DNA from: Rhizobium sp. NFR03
Lineage (GTDB): Bacteria; Pseudomonadota; Alphaproteobacteria; Rhizobiales; Rhizobiaceae
Assembly (NCBI RefSeq): GCF_900111275.1
Contig: NZ_FOGR01000003.1
Span: 62,001-126,000 of the forward strand
Direction of reading: 5' to 3'
Length of the DNA: 64,000 bases
How positions within the stretch are numbered: the stretch's first letter is position 1; each line of letters begins with the position of its first letter. The notes beneath the pieces are model-generated. The model saw nothing but the letters and a program-made list of their open reading frames with translations, ran no database searches and was not told the DNA's origin. The position numbers and the translations under genes are program-made. Shown here in pieces: positions 23,746 through 31,328 of this stretch.

Positions 23746-24159
23746 TCAGGGGCTGAAGCTGCCGAGAATCCAGAGGGAGACCTCGGCAGCCGTTTCCGCG
23801 TTTGCAAACTCGTAGGTTCCATCAAAGGTCGCCGTGTCGTTGAACGACAGCGTCAAGCCGCGGCCACTCTGGGCATGAGTGATCCGTACCTTGCCGGGGA
23901 CGATCAGGTGGCAGAGATAGTGTCGTCCCTGCGATAACACGATGCCCGCTTTTCCGTCGTGAAGCCGCACGAAGAAGGCTTGGCCGTCGGCCGTCGGGTG
24001 GATGGCCCGGATCGCCTCGTTGGGGAAGGCGCGCCCGAAATCAAGAATGGCCTGCCCTTCGTCCGGTTCCGACAGATATTCAGCCTCCTGACGCTTCATG
24101 CGCTGGTAGATATAAGCCGCTGCTAAGAGCGATGCGGCGACGGCAAACCACGATATCAT
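23746..24159 (-). CDS. Hypothetical membrane-anchored protein
   Basis: This 137-residue protein is not recognised. Residues 1-20 form a hydrophobic segment followed by a basic stretch (QRMKRQ), suggesting an uncleaved N-terminal anchor. The rest is a small, probably beta-rich domain with FFVRLHDGKAGIVL and LTLFND-like features, about 110 residues long. It lies between trmFO (convergent) and the phytoene-synthase-like gene on the same strand. There is no catalytic signature. It is probably a rhizobial conserved protein. Confidence 0.6.
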   Translation of the reverse strand: MISWFAVAASLLAAAYIYQRMKRQEAEYLSEPDEGQAILDFGRAFPNEAIRAIHPTADGQAFFVRLHDGKAGIVLSQGRHYLCHLIVPGKVRITHAQSGRGLTLSFNDTATFDGTYEFANAETAAEVSLWILGSFSP

Positions 24160-24336: not shown

Positions 24337-25233
24337 CTACCAGCGACCGCTCTGGGCTGCCCGCCACATCCACCACTGCCGCCGCCATTGCGGTGGAACG
24401 ATGGAGTGCTCGAAAATATCGGCACCCGACGTCTCCGCGCGCTTGAATACCTTTTCGGCAAGTGCCACGCCTGCGAAGGCTGGACGGTTCTGCCGCGAGA
24501 TGCTTTGCGATACCGCGCGTGCTTTGCCGAGATGCTCCCGCCCGAGGCCGGCCAGAGCCTGCACCGCGCGGGTGACCGCCGCACGATCCTCTGCACTCAG
24601 GAAAGATGCCCGGTCAAGGCCCGTGGCTGCGATAAGGTCGGCCGGGAAATAGACCTGGCCGCGCTGCCGATGAATCGGGGCAAGCATAAGGAGCCCGGCA
24701 ATCGTCTGTGCAACCCCGGCATGGCCCGCAGCATCGGCCGAACTGCGCGCGGTTTCCGGATCGAGGATGAGGCAGGCGAGCTGGATCAGGGCCGAAGCGG
24801 TTTCCCCTGCATAACCTTCCAGCGCGCTCCGACTCTCCATCGGGTCGTCATAGAGATCGAAGACACGCGCATCGATCATGTCGAGCAGGACGCCGATCGG
24901 CAGATGTGCAGCGCGTATCGTGTGCAGCAAGGCTTCGGCGAGCGGATTTCCATCCGCCTTGGCGCCTGTCGTATCCTCCAGCGCGTCGCGCCACCATTGT
25001 AACCGGATCTCACCGGGAAGTGGTTCTCGCACGACATCGCGAACACGGGCGATCTCGGCGTGAAAAGCGTAAAGTGCAGCCAGCTGCCCCTGCTTTTCGG
25101 GCGGCGCCAACAGGCAGGCGAGATAGCGATCACGATCGCTCTCGCGCAGCGCGGCAAGGCTCGCGGAAAAATCTGGTATGCCGGGTACGGTGTCAGGATT
25201 GGCGCTATCGGACATGGGAATCGTTCGCGTCAC
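24337..25233 (-). CDS. Squalene/phytoene synthase-like protein, NDUFAF6 family
   Basis: This 298-residue all-helical protein has the trans-isoprenyl synthase fold. It shows AALYAFHAEIARVRD, LQWWRDALED, IDARVFDLYDD and a final HSIVPPQWRRQWWMW segment. The two DxxxD substrate motifs of true squalene or phytoene synthases are not intact (AEIARVRD, DARVFDLYDD). This fits the mitochondrial complex I assembly factor NDUFAF6 rather than carotenoid synthesis. Its GTG start overlaps the stop of the preceding gene (GTGA); an internal ATG at 25215 is an alternative. It is the last gene of the yajC-secDF operon. Confidence 0.82.
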   Translation of the reverse strand: MTRTIPMSDSANPDTVPGIPDFSASLAALRESDRDRYLACLLAPPEKQGQLAALYAFHAEIARVRDVVREPLPGEIRLQWWRDALEDTTGAKADGNPLAEALLHTIRAAHLPIGVLLDMIDARVFDLYDDPMESRSALEGYAGETASALIQLACLILDPETARSSADAAGHAGVAQTIAGLLMLAPIHRQRGQVYFPADLIAATGLDRASFLSAEDRAAVTRAVQALAGLGREHLGKARAVSQSISRQNRPAFAGVALAEKVFKRAETSGADIFEHSIVPPQWRRQWWMWRAAQSGRW

Positions 25234-25616
25234 ACGGCGATGAGAGCGGCGGCGACGTTACGCTCCTCGGCCAGCATGATGTTATAGGTCCGAACCGCTG
25301 CACCTGTGCTCATCGGGTCTGATGAAATGGAGTGACTGCGGAAGGCCGTTTTCACGTCACCCGAAAGTGGCCGGATGTTTACGCCGGTGCCGACAAGGAT
25401 GACCTCGATGTCAACAGCTTCTGCGATAACGCGATCGAAATCGGCTGCCGTCAAAGGCTCGCCTTCTTCCTTTTCCCAGCCGTAGATTCCCGAGGGAAGC
25501 AGCAGGAGCGAGCCGCGATGCGACATGCCGGCAAAGCGGAAACCGCCATTGCCGTAGGCATCGATAGGCGCCCGGCCGGGGAAATGGGCATTGCGAACTT
25601 CGATCGGTCGACGCAT
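25230..25616 (-). CDS. Mth938-like (DUF498) protein, NDUFAF3 family
   Basis: This 128-residue protein of the Mth938-like fold is the bacterial relative of mitochondrial complex I assembly factor NDUFAF3 (C3orf60). Diagnostic segments are YGNGGFRFAGMSHRGSLL, VEVILVGTGV-like DIEVILVGTG, and STGAAVRTYNIMLAEERNVA. Its ATG overlaps the secDF stop by one base, and its stop overlaps the start of the NDUFAF6-like gene, so all three are translationally coupled. The known neighbourhood of this family with secDF in alphaproteobacteria supports a role in inserting or assembling complex I. Confidence 0.88.
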   Translation of the reverse strand: MRRPIEVRNAHFPGRAPIDAYGNGGFRFAGMSHRGSLLLLPSGIYGWEKEEGEPLTAADFDRVIAEAVDIEVILVGTGVNIRPLSGDVKTAFRSHSISSDPMSTGAAVRTYNIMLAEERNVAAALIAV

Positions 25617-28144
25617 CAGGCTGCTCCCTGCATGTCGCGTGCGCGGGCGCGGGCACGCTTCAGCCGGAACAGGATGAGCACCGGCCCAGCGACATAAATG
25701 GAGGAGAAGGTCGCTACGGCTACCCCGAACATCAAGACGACGGCAAAGGGACGGATCGTATCGCTGCCGAAGAGGCTCAGCGCCGCCAAAGCCAGAAGCG
25801 TCGTCGCACCCGTCAACACGGTGCGCGACAGCGTCTGGTTGATGGCGGTGTCGATCAGGATTGGCAGAGGCATGCGCGGGAACCGGTTCAGGTTCTCACG
25901 GATACGGTCATAGACGATGACGGTGTCGTTCAGCGAATAGCCGACGATGGTCAACAGCGCTGCCACGCTCGTCAGATTGAACTCCATGCCGGTCACGACG
26001 AAAAGCCCGATCGTCAGAATGACGTCGTGCAGTGTTGCGACAATGGCGCCCGCAGCGAACTGCCATTCGTAGCGAGCCCAGATGTAGAGAAGAATGCCAA
26101 GCAGCGAGATGGCGACACCGATCGAGGCGGAACGCGTGAGGGTTTCCGAGACCGTGGGACCGACGACCTCGACACGACGGAGTTCGTAAGCACTGTCGAG
26201 CTCGTCGCGAATGAGAATAACGGCCGTCTGCTCGGCGTTCTCCCCGCCATCGCGGGACTGAACGCGGATGACGGCATCACGTGGCGAACCATAGGGTTCG
26301 ACCGCGATGTCCCCGAGATTGAGCTCATCGAGACGCGCGCGAATATCGCCAATATTGGCATTGCCCTCGCGTGCCTGGACCTCGATGACCGAACCGCCCG
26401 AGAAGTCGATACCGAGATTGATGCCGAACAGACCGAAGAGCACGACGGTGAGGATCGAAAGGGCTGCCGTGACCGAGAAAACGTAGCGGCGCGCCGCCAT
26501 GAAGCGGAACGAGAGGTGATCGAATATCGCCGTCTTGATGCCGCGGGGCAAGCGCTTGCGCGGACGGCGGCGCTGCCATGCCTCCAGCATCACGCGGGTC
26601 AGTGTGAAGGCTGTGAAGAGCGTAGTGACGATACCGATGGCGAGCGTGACGGCAAAGCCGCGAATAGAGCCGCTGCCAAGATAAAGGAGAATGATCGCGG
26701 CGATCAACGTGGTGATATTGGCGTCCACAATAGCGCCGAAGGCGCGGGCGAAGCCGAGCTGGATCGCCTGGCGGAAGTCGCGGCCGGCGGCTGCCTCCTC
26801 GCGGAAGCGCTCGAAAATGAGAACGTTGGAGTCCACCGCCATGCCGATCGTCAGCACGATGCCAGCGAGCCCGGGGAGCGTCAGCGGCAAGCCGGTCGCG
26901 GTGAGAACGGCGACGATCATGACCACATTGAGCACGACCGCGATGCTGGCCACGACGCCGAAGCGTCCATAGAAGCCGACCATGAAGGCGATGATGACGA
27001 CCGTGCCGACTGCGCCGGCGATCAGCATGGAATCGATACTGTCGGAACCGCGGCCTGCGCCGATCGTGCGCTCCTCGGCAACAGAGATCGATGCCGGGAG
27101 GGCGCCGGCCCGCAGGACCAGGGCGAGATCCTGAGCGCCCTCGGGCGTCATATCGGCGGCAAGCCGCATGCGGCCGTCGGTAACGGCGTCGCGAATAAGA
27201 GGCGTCGCAATGACTGCTCCGTCGAGAACAACGGCCATGGTGGTACCGGCAACCACCTTGGTGGCCTCTGCAAAGCGGCGCGCACCATCCTCGGTGAAAA
27301 CAAGATCGACCACCGGCGCGCCATTCTGCGCGTCCGTCGTGGCTGTCGCGTCCGCGATATCCGCCGTTGTCACCACAGGCTGGCGGCGTACGAGCGTGGC
27401 AACCGGCGGATCTTCCGCAGAATAAAGAACCTCGGAGCCTGCCGGCGGCGCGCCGGTCACGGCTTGCTCGACGGTCGAGGACATATCGGCGATGCGGAAG
27501 GAGAATTCCCCGCCCTGCCCCAAAACCGTCTTCAGCTGTTCGGAATCGTAAAGCCCCGGAACCTGCACGACGATTCGGTCGGCGCCCTGACGCCCCAGGC
27601 GCGGTGCAACCACGCCAAGTTCCACGAGGCGCCGTTCAAGCACGGCGATGCTGTCGGTGACCGCATCCGCAAGGCGTGCATCGATGCCTTCTGCCGTCAG
27701 AGCAAGCCGCGACTGGCCATCGGACGTGCCGACGAAGCGCAGCTCGCTGACGGCCTTGCTGCCGCGGCCGCGATCGACAGCGCCGGTGAGCGGCGCCATG
27801 ACTTGCGGCAGGCTTTCCGCCTTTGCAGCATCCTGAAGAGAGAAAGTGATTTCCTCACCCGTCCCTGAAAGATCGGTGTAGGCGAGATTGGCATTGCGCA
27901 GCTGTGCCGCGACGGCATCGGTTGCGGCTTGCAGGCGCGTATGCGTTACATCATCGCGCTCCACTTTGAGCACGATCCGCGAGCCACCGGAAAGATCCAG
28001 CCCAAGCGCAACCTGGCGGGCTGGAACCCAGTCCGGCAGGCTATCGAGAAGCGAACGTGGCAACACGTTCGGCAGGGCCACGACGAGGCTCGCGAGAACG
28101 ACGAGCCATACGAGGATAGTTCCCCAGCGTGAGGTTTGCGGCAT
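25616..28144 (-). CDS. secDF: Fused protein-export translocase subunit SecDF
   Basis: This 842-residue inner-membrane protein is a fusion of SecD (about 1-520) and SecF (about 535-842). It uses the proton gradient to pull proteins through SecYEG. SecD features include LGLDLSGGSRIVL, the large periplasmic P1 region and GAVGTVVIIAFM; the SecF half has GINLGIDFSGGSVIEV and SLNDTVIVYDRIREN. About twelve membrane segments are expected. It lies 61 bases after yajC and overlaps the following NDUFAF3-like gene. Confidence 0.96.
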   Translation of the reverse strand: MPQTSRWGTILVWLVVLASLVVALPNVLPRSLLDSLPDWVPARQVALGLDLSGGSRIVLKVERDDVTHTRLQAATDAVAAQLRNANLAYTDLSGTGEEITFSLQDAAKAESLPQVMAPLTGAVDRGRGSKAVSELRFVGTSDGQSRLALTAEGIDARLADAVTDSIAVLERRLVELGVVAPRLGRQGADRIVVQVPGLYDSEQLKTVLGQGGEFSFRIADMSSTVEQAVTGAPPAGSEVLYSAEDPPVATLVRRQPVVTTADIADATATTDAQNGAPVVDLVFTEDGARRFAEATKVVAGTTMAVVLDGAVIATPLIRDAVTDGRMRLAADMTPEGAQDLALVLRAGALPASISVAEERTIGAGRGSDSIDSMLIAGAVGTVVIIAFMVGFYGRFGVVASIAVVLNVVMIVAVLTATGLPLTLPGLAGIVLTIGMAVDSNVLIFERFREEAAAGRDFRQAIQLGFARAFGAIVDANITTLIAAIILLYLGSGSIRGFAVTLAIGIVTTLFTAFTLTRVMLEAWQRRRPRKRLPRGIKTAIFDHLSFRFMAARRYVFSVTAALSILTVVLFGLFGINLGIDFSGGSVIEVQAREGNANIGDIRARLDELNLGDIAVEPYGSPRDAVIRVQSRDGGENAEQTAVILIRDELDSAYELRRVEVVGPTVSETLTRSASIGVAISLLGILLYIWARYEWQFAAGAIVATLHDVILTIGLFVVTGMEFNLTSVAALLTIVGYSLNDTVIVYDRIRENLNRFPRMPLPILIDTAINQTLSRTVLTGATTLLALAALSLFGSDTIRPFAVVLMFGVAVATFSSIYVAGPVLILFRLKRARARARDMQGAA

Positions 28145-28205
28145 GACGCTCCCGGCGCTTCGCAGTGGATCGATCGGATCGTCGTCTCTTGCCGCAAGCG
28201 GCCCG

Positions 28206-28541
28206 TTATTCCTTGACGGGCTCGCCCTTGACGCGGACTTCGGTCACACCACTCCGTACCACACGAATCTTGATGCCGTCAGCAATTTCCACTTCGAGTT
28301 CACCGTCATCGATGACCTTCGTAACCTTGCCGACGATGCCGCCGCCGGTGACGACCTGATCGCCACGGCGGATGTTCTTCAGCAGTTCCTCACGACGCTT
28401 CAAGGCCGTGCGCTGCGGACGGATGATCAGGAAGTACATCACGACGAAGATCAGCAGGAACGGCAGGATGGACATGAGAATGTCCGCGCTGCCGGCGCCG
28501 GTTGCACCTGGCGTCTGCGCGAAAGCTTCCGTAATGAACAT
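28206..28541 (-). CDS. yajC: Preprotein translocase subunit YajC
   Basis: This 111-residue protein has one membrane segment (about 22-40, LPFLLIFVVMYFLIIRPQ) followed by the basic QRTALKRREELLKNI stretch and GDQVVTGGGIVGKV. This is the standard YajC pattern. It is a partner of SecDF in the Sec holotranslocon and the first gene of the operon running to 24337. Confidence 0.94.
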   Translation of the reverse strand: MFITEAFAQTPGATGAGSADILMSILPFLLIFVVMYFLIIRPQRTALKRREELLKNIRRGDQVVTGGGIVGKVTKVIDDGELEVEIADGIKIRVVRSGVTEVRVKGEPVKE

Positions 28542-28784: not shown

Positions 28785-29678
28785 ATGAGCGAAGCGACAA
28801 TCGAACGGCTGATGGAAGAGGTTCGACGGCTGTCTGCGGCGGTCGAGCGCATTGCCGGCCCCGCACCCGCGGTGAACGATCTCGACGCGGCGGAGTGCTT
28901 CGTCTGGGCGCCTTCGCGAAGCCACCTGCAGCCTGTCGCGCGACCGAACCGCATCGACCTCGCCCTCATCCAGAGCGTCGATCATGTCAGGGACATCCTT
29001 CTCGACAATACGCTGCGGTTTGCAGAAGGTTTTCCAGCGAACAACGTCCTTCTCTGGGGCGCGCGGGGTATGGGCAAGTCTTCGCTCGTGAAATCCGTTC
29101 ATGCTGCCGTCATCCAGCGGACGGGTGTTGCGCTGAAGCTGGTGGAAGTGCATCGCGAGGATATCGCCACCCTGCCCCAGCTGATGGATATCCTTAAAGC
29201 CTCATCCGCTTCCTTCATCGTCTTTTGCGATGACCTGTCGTTCGACCATGACGACACGTCGTATAAGTCGCTCAAAGCCGTGCTGGATGGCGGCATCGAA
29301 GGACGTCCGGGCAATGTGCTTCTCTACGCGACCTCGAACCGCCGCCACCTGCTGCCTCGCGACATGATGGAGAACGAGCGCTCGACGGCAATCAACCCTT
29401 CGGAGGCGGTGGAGGAAAAAGTTTCGTTGTCAGATCGCTTCGGCCTGTGGCTGGGCTTCTACAAGTGCAGCCAGGAAGACTATCTCGCAATGATAGATGC
29501 CTATGCGCAGCATTTCGCGATCGCTATTTCCCGGACAGACCTCCATGCGCAGGCGCTCGAATGGAGCACGACGCGTGGAGGGCGTTCGGGTCGCGTTGCC
29601 TGGCAATTCATTCAGGACCTTGCAGGACGCACCCGCACGCGGATCGGGGACTGCGAAAGCAGTGCCTCGACGCAGTAG
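28785..29678 (+). CDS. DUF815 family AAA-type ATPase
   Basis: This 297-residue protein has a Walker A motif GARGMGKSS (92-100), a Walker B motif FIVFCDDLS (about 144-152) and a sensor-like YATSNRRHLLP stretch. The N-terminal 30 residues form a short coiled region. DUF815 proteins are stand-alone AAA-type ATPases of unknown substrate, widely conserved. A good ribosome-binding site (GAGGAGA) precedes ATG 28785. The gene is divergent from yajC and convergent with the LysM/LytM lipoprotein gene. Confidence 0.88.
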   Translation: MSEATIERLMEEVRRLSAAVERIAGPAPAVNDLDAAECFVWAPSRSHLQPVARPNRIDLALIQSVDHVRDILLDNTLRFAEGFPANNVLLWGARGMGKSSLVKSVHAAVIQRTGVALKLVEVHREDIATLPQLMDILKASSASFIVFCDDLSFDHDDTSYKSLKAVLDGGIEGRPGNVLLYATSNRRHLLPRDMMENERSTAINPSEAVEEKVSLSDRFGLWLGFYKCSQEDYLAMIDAYAQHFAIAISRTDLHAQALEWSTTRGGRSGRVAWQFIQDLAGRTRTRIGDCESSASTQ

Positions 29679-29753: not shown

Positions 29754-31328
29754 CTATTCCAGGTAGGTTGCCGGATTGACGGCCGTCGCATTCTTGCGGA
29801 CTTCGAAGTGCACCTGAGGCTGGCTTGCGGTGCCGCTCATGCCGGACGCTGCGAGTGTCTGCCCGCGCTGGATCTTCTGGCCGCGCTGGACCTTCAGCTC
29901 CGAAGCGTTGCCATAGACCGTGACAGTGCCGTCGTCGTGGCGCACGAGGACCGCGTTTCCGAGTTCCTTGAGGCTGCTGCCGGAATAGATGACCACACCG
30001 TTTTCGGCTGCCTTGATCGGCGTTCCCTCAGGTACCGAGATGTTGATGCCGTCATTGCGGTTGCCTTCGACATTGGCGCCGTAACCGGCGACGACGGCAC
30101 CGCGGACCGGCCAGCGATACTTGCTGATCCCGGTGGCCTTGGGAGCGTCCGAACCATCGTCCTTGGCGGCGACTTCGTTGACCGACTGCTTTGCCACGGC
30201 CGGCGTATATTCCGTCGGCTTCGTGACTTCGGCCTTTGCCTGCTCCACCTTCGCCGTCTTCGGCTCGGCCTTCGGGGCAACACCCTTCGGAGCGACGGAT
30301 GCCGTGGTCACCTCATCCGTGCCGGGCTGGGTGGCATTCCGGGCAACCGATGCCGTCTTCGGGAGCTTCAAAGCCTGACCGACACGAATGGCGCCGCTCG
30401 TCAGGCCGTTTTCCGCGCGAAGCTGATCGACGGAGACGCCGTTTGCCTTCGCGATACGATTTAGCGAATCGCCAGCCTTGACCGTGTATGTACCGGCCTT
30501 GTCGCCCTCACCAGCCACCGGCTGCTTGCCGGCAGTGGTACCGTTCGCGGTCGAGCCCTTTTCGCGGCTCTGCGTCTGCGTCGGCAGGATGGCAACGTCG
30601 CGGTTTTCCGGCAGAACAGGCTTGTTCTTCTGCTTGTCGACATCGAGAGCCGTCGCAGCCTGGGAAGCCGACGCCTTGGCAGCGCTACCGGCTGCTCCAT
30701 AGGTGGGGATCAGAATGCGCTGACCCGGCTCGGCGTCGGAGCCGCGCTTCAGGCCGTTTGCCTTCAGAATTTCCTTTTCCGGCACACCGAAGCGGGTTGC
30801 AAGCGATGCCGTCGTATCACCCTGACGCATCAGCACGGCCGGCGCATTGACGGTAGACCAGCCGCTGGATGTACGAACAGTCGCCGTGTTGACCGGATCC
30901 GGCGCAGCCAGTGCGGGCGTCCTTGGGCGTGCAGAAGACGTTTCCGACGGAAAGGGCTGAGCGCTCGGGCGACGGGTCGGTTCGGCCGTCGGTTCAGCAA
31001 GCGTCGTGCGCTGAACGTTCATCGGCGTCGAGGCAACACGTGTGCGAGACACGGGCGTCACATTGACCGGGTCGGGGAAAGACTGACTGACCGCCGCCTG
31101 ACGGGTGTTCGACATCGGCGGCATGTTGCCGCTACCGTCGAGATCTCCGCGCGGAACCGGCACCGAAGCGCTGGGAATGGAATTGGTCGTCAGGTCGGAC
31201 GAGCGCGAAAACAAGCCTCCGAACCGGGACGAGTCCGAACTGCAGCCACTCGCCGCGCTCGCCAGGAGAACGGCCACTCCCAGACGGATGACCGATTTAT
31301 GAACAGATGACGATACACTCAAACGCAT
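29754..31328 (-). CDS. LysM lipoprotein with degenerate LytM (M23) domain, NlpD/DipM-like
   Basis: This 524-residue lipoprotein has lipobox ASGC (Cys29), a low-complexity linker, LysM domain 1 (about 167-209), LysM domain 2 (about 280-323), a Lys/Ala-rich linker and a C-terminal M23/LytM domain (about 404-524). The zinc-site residues are mostly replaced: N425 and N429 where HxxxD would stand, N474 in place of the YxH histidine and Q505 for the first His of HxH; only His507 remains. Such domains, as in NlpD, EnvC or DipM, activate amidases rather than cut peptidoglycan. The likely role is septal peptidoglycan splitting in cell division. It has no close operon partner. Confidence 0.87.
   Translation of the reverse strand: MRLSVSSSVHKSVIRLGVAVLLASAASGCSSDSSRFGGLFSRSSDLTTNSIPSASVPVPRGDLDGSGNMPPMSNTRQAAVSQSFPDPVNVTPVSRTRVASTPMNVQRTTLAEPTAEPTRRPSAQPFPSETSSARPRTPALAAPDPVNTATVRTSSGWSTVNAPAVLMRQGDTTASLATRFGVPEKEILKANGLKRGSDAEPGQRILIPTYGAAGSAAKASASQAATALDVDKQKNKPVLPENRDVAILPTQTQSREKGSTANGTTAGKQPVAGEGDKAGTYTVKAGDSLNRIAKANGVSVDQLRAENGLTSGAIRVGQALKLPKTASVARNATQPGTDEVTTASVAPKGVAPKAEPKTAKVEQAKAEVTKPTEYTPAVAKQSVNEVAAKDDGSDAPKATGISKYRWPVRGAVVAGYGANVEGNRNDGINISVPEGTPIKAAENGVVIYSGSSLKELGNAVLVRHDDGTVTVYGNASELKVQRGQKIQRGQTLAASGMSGTASQPQVHFEVRKNATAVNPATYLE

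Follow-up and report, generated by a model that had tools for sequence, protein, structure and literature searches.

Four genes lie together on the minus strand of the window, by which we mean the whole stretch of 64,000 nucleotides that was analysed, and the domain and open-reading-frame scans agree with an earlier sequence-only reading of the same DNA in placing all four on one strand. The gene yajC (28206-28541) encodes a Sec translocase accessory subunit of 111 aa (PF02699, E 5.5e-26; TIGR00739 above its cut-off) and is followed, after a gap of 61 nt, by secDF (25616-28144), which encodes a fused SecD-SecF protein of 842 aa (PF02355, PF22599, PF21760 and PF07549; TIGR01129 and TIGR00966 above their cut-offs). 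The domains of YajC and SecDF were thereby confirmed for these two genes in the Pfam and NCBIfam scans. The third gene (25230-25616) encodes an NDUFAF3-like protein of 128 aa with the DUF498/Mth938 fold, which scores 103.9 bits with PF04430 against a cut-off of 33. The fourth gene (24337-25233) encodes an NDUFAF6-like protein with the SQS_PSY fold (PF00494, 185.8 bits), which has 298 aa when it is read from the GTG at 25233.

The last three genes had been described as overlapping by ATGA and GTGA. At the junction of secDF and DUF498, GCCTGATGCG, the TGA stop and the ATG start have a single base in common (TGATG), and this sequence rules out a 4-base ATGA. At the junction of DUF498 and the SQS_PSY-fold gene, GTGTGACG, the GTGA overlap is present if translation starts at GTG 25233 and is lost if it starts at the alternative ATG 25215, which lies 18 nt further in and yields a protein of 292 aa.

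A protein of 137 aa (23746-24159, minus strand) is a candidate fifth member of the cluster. It has no match in Pfam or NCBIfam, and its hydrophobic N-terminus was recognized by reading. A relative of this protein occurs near the cluster end in 79 of 80 loci from close relatives, and in all 79 its frame starts at most 0.8 kb from the end of the NDUFAF6-like frame; its gene may be the one that closes the cluster. Divergent from yajC lies a gene for a DUF815 AAA ATPase (28785-29678, plus strand), and next to it a gene for a LysM-M23 peptidase (29754-31328, minus strand) that is related to DipM/NlpD at scores below the family cut-offs. The same genome encodes a separate NuoC (open frame of 202 aa) on the same contig, approximately 255 kb away. 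Because this NuoC is unfused, the organism has the type of complex I in which NuoC and NuoD are two proteins. The DUF498 gene and the NDUFAF6-like gene both lie away from NuoC.

Identity of the two small proteins

Both small proteins are related to human complex I assembly factors, as had been stated in the sequence-only reading, one through PF04430 and the other through PF00494 with its motifs lost. Among solved structures, the best matches of the DUF498 profile (A2) are PDB 2fvt (E 4e-37) and 2fi9 (E 5e-34), two DUF498 proteins that are filed as "conserved hypothetical protein" and "Outer membrane protein", respectively, with no function given.

The closest named relatives of the NDUFAF6-like protein are found in Rhizobium-type strains, at 91% identity, which makes Rhizobiaceae the most likely source of the window. 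In addition to the PF00494 match, its AlphaFold model (mean pLDDT 91.4) matches squalene-synthase-like structures, with a best Foldseek E of 1e-8. Its scores remain far below the cut-offs for HpnD (100.4 versus 278.6 bits) and HpnC (49 versus 250.45 bits), and in the tree the NDUFAF6-like proteins form a clade that is distinct from HpnC/HpnD. Squalene and phytoene synthases are recognized by two Asp-rich DxxxD motifs. In an alignment of 31 sequences, with the motif sites located by alignment with HpnC, DxxxD is absent at both sites and is retained in none of the 31. Site 1 reads AxxxE in 20 and AxxxD in seven of these sequences, and site 2 reads AxxxH in 15; in the protein of the window, the sites are ARVRD and LAPIH. 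It had been proposed that proteins of this type have lost prenyl synthase activity. The loss of the motifs is plain, and the protein has probably lost its enzyme activity, to judge from these residues. According to the part of PMC12470011 that was available, human and Arabidopsis NDUFAF6 have AxxxD and AxxxH/SxxxH, the fly and nematode proteins show other replacement residues, and the nematode NDUFAF6-like protein is without SQS or PSY activity. Likewise, the accessible portion of PMC8007014 describes the loss of the motifs in Candida NDU1 and its orthologues and states that complex I depends on NDU1.

Gene order in Alphaproteobacteria and beyond

We compared 80 DUF498 neighbourhoods, one per genome, which were taken from the 164 DUF498-positive genomes of the alphaproteobacterial sample described below and were spread over families. 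In 72 of the 80, the domain immediately upstream of DUF498 is SecF, with the DUF498 domain starting at most 200 nt from the SecF stop. The sequence-only reading had already placed NDUFAF3 homologues beside secDF in other alphaproteobacteria. Such homologues next to secDF were reportedly described by Saada et al. in 2009, and the arrangement of yajC, secDF, DUF498 and the NDUFAF6-like gene is ordinary and already described. In three loci (L050 and, with the strong DUF498 matches of family f23 considered below, L112 and L113), yajC directly adjoins DUF498, with no SecDF between them.

When profile A1 was counted at E ≤ 1e-26, an NDUFAF6-like gene was found downstream of DUF498 in 56 of the 80 neighbourhoods, on the same strand in all 56; it is directly adjacent in eight and stands at 0.8-4.3 kb in the other 48. 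The remaining 24 loci are no proof of absence because their stretches ended 0.2-4.5 kb downstream, and two of the 80 (L080 and L083) have adjacent weak candidates below the cut-off that were left out of the 56. In the order to which the window belongs, the two genes are adjacent in 36 of 38 genomes. They are also adjacent in all of 80 close-relative loci, which are the best 80 of a longer list drawn by similarity to the NDUFAF6-like protein. A 4-nt overlap of DUF498 and the NDUFAF6-like gene is possible in only nine of these 80 loci, and a conserved translational overlap is therefore ruled out; the tight spacing is conserved. The two genes were not found fused, in that no open frame in the 80 DUF498 loci matched both profiles. 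We regard this gene neighbourhood as more than chance.

Two further families recur downstream of DUF498, mostly on the opposite strand, in 19 and 14 loci; an example of the former reads as a superoxide dismutase, a name that was taken from the sequence. In six loci (L051, L056, L073, L077, L089 and L091), an hpnCDE-like cluster, its hpnE named by reading, lies downstream of DUF498 on the opposite strand, near the NDUFAF6-like gene where the latter was found. There is a hint that the NDUFAF6-like gene arose by duplication of an hpnCDE-type synthase. Outside Alphaproteobacteria, neither SecDF nor YajC was present within 1.5 kb of DUF498 in any of the 12 loci examined, which are the best-scoring of 74 positive genomes and no random draw.

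Co-occurrence with complex I

All survey counts are plain counts of genomes that ignore phylogeny, and absences may be overcounted because in many genomes the profile search scored only part of the candidates (for example, 8 of 47). The class sample consists of 289 alphaproteobacterial genomes that are at least 90% complete, with a NuoD match counted at E ≤ 0.001 and the NDUFAF6-like gene at A1 E ≤ 1e-40; 13 genomes with an A1 match between 1e-30 and 1e-40 were left uncounted. Of the 289 genomes, 267 have NuoD (252 above the curated cut-off), 164 have DUF498 and 150 have the NDUFAF6-like gene. Every genome with either gene has a NuoD match (164/164 and 150/150), the matches counted as present including weak ones (G189, 9e-31; G193, 2e-19; G061, 2e-81), and 103 of the 267 genomes with NuoD are without DUF498. 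Neither gene was counted in any of the 22 genomes without NuoD (0/22 for each). Four of these genomes (G213, G037, G144 and G225) have A1 matches of 1e-21 to 1e-26; the match in G213 is HpnD by its motifs, and true diverged copies can score as low. Twenty of the 22 have a listed size, which is at most 2.0 Mb in every case. When they are compared with the NuoD-positive genomes of at most 2.0 Mb, the difference is not significant for DUF498 (13/78 versus 0/22, p 0.066) or for the NDUFAF6-like gene (7/78 versus 0/22, p 0.34), and the class sample alone was therefore rejected as proof of a link with complex I.

Within the class sample, the co-occurrence of the two genes is strong: 133 of the 289 genomes have both, 31 have DUF498 only, 17 have the NDUFAF6-like gene only and 108 have neither. 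NDUFAF3 and C8orf38 co-evolve in eukaryotes, according to the available part of PMC3436739. The strong class co-occurrence, together with the common strand in 56 of 56 loci, argues against the view that the tight cluster is a conserved neighbourhood without functional meaning and that each gene acts independently, for which the distance of 0.8-4.3 kb in 48 loci and the lack of conserved overlaps both speak. We consider this view possible but doubtful, and it can coexist with a role of the two genes in complex I.

The phylum sample consists of 249 genomes, of which 161 lie outside Alphaproteobacteria. Among the latter, DUF498 is present in 73 of 134 genomes with NuoD versus 1 of 27 without it (p 3e-7). 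The difference persists when NuoD is required at E ≤ 1e-100 (70/127 versus 4/34, p 4e-6) and when the dominant family is removed (35/95 versus 1/27, p 6e-4). Genome size is not the cause here because 18 of the 19 NuoD-less genomes with a listed size have 2.0-5.3 Mb. Among the four exceptions under the strict threshold, two (G485 and G499) have NuoH and two do not: G460 has only a NuoD match of 6e-5, and G396 has DUF498 with no match to NuoD or NuoH. The DUF498 gene of G396 (L254:156-554, plus strand) has two downstream neighbours that are radical SAM/SPASM-like at scores below the family cut-offs. There is also a hint that a NuoCD-like class outside Alphaproteobacteria avoids DUF498 (0/29 versus 70/97, with the NuoD E-value as a stand-in for the class). 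For the NDUFAF6-like gene, we make no claim outside Alphaproteobacteria because uncertain matches reach 8e-48, which makes the A1 threshold of E ≤ 1e-40 unusable.

These loci outside the class also bear on the proposal that the DUF498 protein, and perhaps its neighbour too, is a general accessory factor of Sec or SecDF with only an indirect link to complex I. The position of SecF directly upstream of DUF498 in 72 of 80 neighbourhoods, and of yajC in its place in L050, L112 and L113, would suit such a factor. However, DUF498 tracks NuoD outside the class although none of the 12 loci there stands near SecDF or YajC, and SecDF is, to our knowledge, near universal in bacteria, whereas DUF498 is not. 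We judge a general Sec factor to be unlikely and return to complex I.

Family f23 consists of 90 alphaproteobacterial genomes that were drawn from a larger group, and its traits fit Acetobacteraceae, to which it presumably corresponds. In the part of PMC10715153 that was available, nuo13 and nuo14 operons are listed separately in Acetobacteraceae, and NDUFAF is absent from that text. DUF498 matches occur in only three of the 90 genomes, two of them strong. In this family, some NuoD proteins stand alone (the nuo14 or mitochondrial type of complex I, with NuoC separate), and others are joined to NuoC (the nuo13 or NuoCD type). We called 69 genomes unfused by NuoD score, of which 10 were read and four domain-scanned; 10 genomes have fused NuoCD only among the strong matches, as read from their frames, with both domains confirmed in the six that were scanned; in six, no NuoD match goes beyond 5e-20, and NuoH is lacking as well; and five have a partial NuoD (G290, G303, G305, G312 and G360). 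True copies of the NDUFAF6-like gene that have diverged score 2e-23 to 1e-34 in this family, and eight positives and 11 negatives were separated from HpnC/HpnD by tree and motifs and the rest by score. On this basis, the NDUFAF6-like gene is present in 63 of the 69 genomes with unfused NuoD, one of the 10 with fused NuoCD only and none of the six without NuoD (p 4e-11), as well as in four of the five with a partial NuoD. Thus, in family f23 the presence of the NDUFAF6-like gene goes with the mitochondrial type of complex I, in which NuoC and NuoD are unfused.

The exceptions deserve attention. The one positive genome with fused NuoCD only (G309) has a second nuo operon, NuoG-H-I-L-M-N, which is followed by a type III pantothenate kinase and ends at the contig edge. 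Of the genomes with partial NuoD, G290, G303 and G305 have a strong NuoH, and G312 and G360 have NDUFAF6-like matches of 4e-58 and 7e-60, respectively, with NuoD and NuoH matches that are weak and at the level of hydrogenases. The latter two genomes are either assembly gaps or true counterexamples and, unless they are gaps, they count against the link with complex I. When G309 is moved and the partial genomes are placed by NuoH, the gene is present in 66 of 73 nuo14-type genomes versus 2 of 17 others (p 4e-10); when G309 is kept as an exception, the counts are 65 of 72 versus 3 of 18 (p 2e-9). The six unfused genomes that were not counted as positive are G300 and G320, with short or unclear matches, and G313, G343, G354 and G372, in which no NDUFAF6-like gene was found, the candidates having been only partly scored in three of these four. 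Five genomes (G325, G341, G352, G362 and G370) have both an unfused NuoD and a fused NuoCD, as judged by frame length, and keep the NDUFAF6-like gene. In a small tree, the genomes with fused NuoCD and those without NuoD come together in the HpnD part, and the losses may therefore represent only a few events.

In four genomes with fused NuoCD only (G295, G308, G311 and G315), HpnD is kept and an NDUFAF6-like gene was not found. It is very unlikely, in our opinion, that the SQS_PSY-fold protein has kept a part in making or handling an isoprenoid of the squalene, hopanoid or carotenoid branch and is linked to complex I through membrane lipids: its resemblance in fold and sequence to CrtM-like enzymes, HpnC and carbazole prenyltransferases, and its position near an hpnCDE-like cluster in some alphaproteobacteria, are outweighed by the absence of both DxxxD motifs in 31 of 31 sequences, the separate clade, these four genomes and the nematode protein without SQS or PSY activity (PMC12470011, in the part available).

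A probable role in complex I biogenesis

We consider it probable that the DUF498 gene corresponds in bacteria to NDUFAF3 and the SQS_PSY-fold gene to NDUFAF6, and that both encode complex I biogenesis factors. We infer a complex I role for both genes with good support. The link with complex I that the sequence-only reading had drawn is upheld by the DUF498 counts outside the class, where the gene tracks NuoD, and by the NDUFAF6-like counts in family f23, where the gene tracks nuo14; the survey that it had called for gave no such answer in the class sample once size was matched. By contrast, the idea that the two proteins form an obligatory pair is not supported, because family f23 retains complex I and the NDUFAF6-like gene although DUF498 is nearly gone there.

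In the mechanism that we propose, the NDUFAF6-like protein would descend from a prenyl-synthase fold whose Mg/diphosphate ligands are gone, and it would serve the mitochondrial-type complex I with separate NuoC and NuoD. Like its human relative, it would act most likely at the NuoH/Q-module step. The DUF498 protein may aid complex I more widely across Pseudomonadota and yet be dispensable. As a guide to the step, the available parts of the sources describe NDUFAF3 as a Q-module assembly factor (PMC6056720, PMC10910544) and normal ND1 synthesis as dependent on human NDUFAF3, 4 and 6 (PMC6056720). The placement of the genes in or near yajC-secDF is perhaps such that the factors arise together with the machinery that inserts the membrane subunits. 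Action at the Sec translocon, which had also been suggested, agrees with the gene order but not with the 12 loci outside the class, all away from SecDF, or with the distance of the NDUFAF6-like gene in 48 of 56 loci. A role there is weakly indicated: it could account for the gene order and for no more than that, and any contact with SecDF would be a further conjecture.

The tie of the NDUFAF6-like gene to the type of complex I is the new detail of this study. We found no literature report that tested bacterial NDUFAF3 or NDUFAF6 and none of an NDUFAF6-like gene that follows nuo14 but not nuo13; the available parts of PMC4013037, PMC7050145 and PMC12419801 contain nothing bearing on this question. 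As a speculation that we think improbable, the NDUFAF6-like protein may be dedicated to nuo14 and not to nuo13, and its emptied prenyl-synthase pocket may hold the tail of an isoprenoid such as ubiquinone while the quinone channel is being closed by NuoH and the Q module. Under this speculation, the gene could be dropped by bacteria in which nuo13 has replaced nuo14.

Mutations in NDUFAF6 cause complex I deficiency in humans. If its counterpart in bacteria is tied to a single type of complex I, alphaproteobacteria that are easy to grow would offer a direct test bed, and the difference between the nuo14 and nuo13 enzymes should indicate which subunit and which step are served. The survey also warns that the NDUFAF3-like gene and the NDUFAF6-like gene should not be treated as a single obligatory module.

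Compared with known systems, the bacterial DUF498 protein shares the DUF498/Mth938 fold and the Pfam family with human NDUFAF3 (C3orf60), which we take to belong to PF04430; many genomes with complex I lack the bacterial gene. The NDUFAF6-like protein shares its fold and Pfam family with the squalene and presqualene synthases HpnC and HpnD but differs from them in its lack of the catalytic Asp motifs, its scores below the equivalog cut-offs and its separate clade. Its likeness to human NDUFAF6 (C8orf38) rests on reported motifs, the tree being composed of bacterial sequences. Both proteins have the PF00494 fold with both DxxxD motifs replaced, and the bacterial site 1 has A first and D or E last in 27 of 31 sequences; it is more often AxxxE than AxxxD, and site 2 of the protein in the window starts with L.
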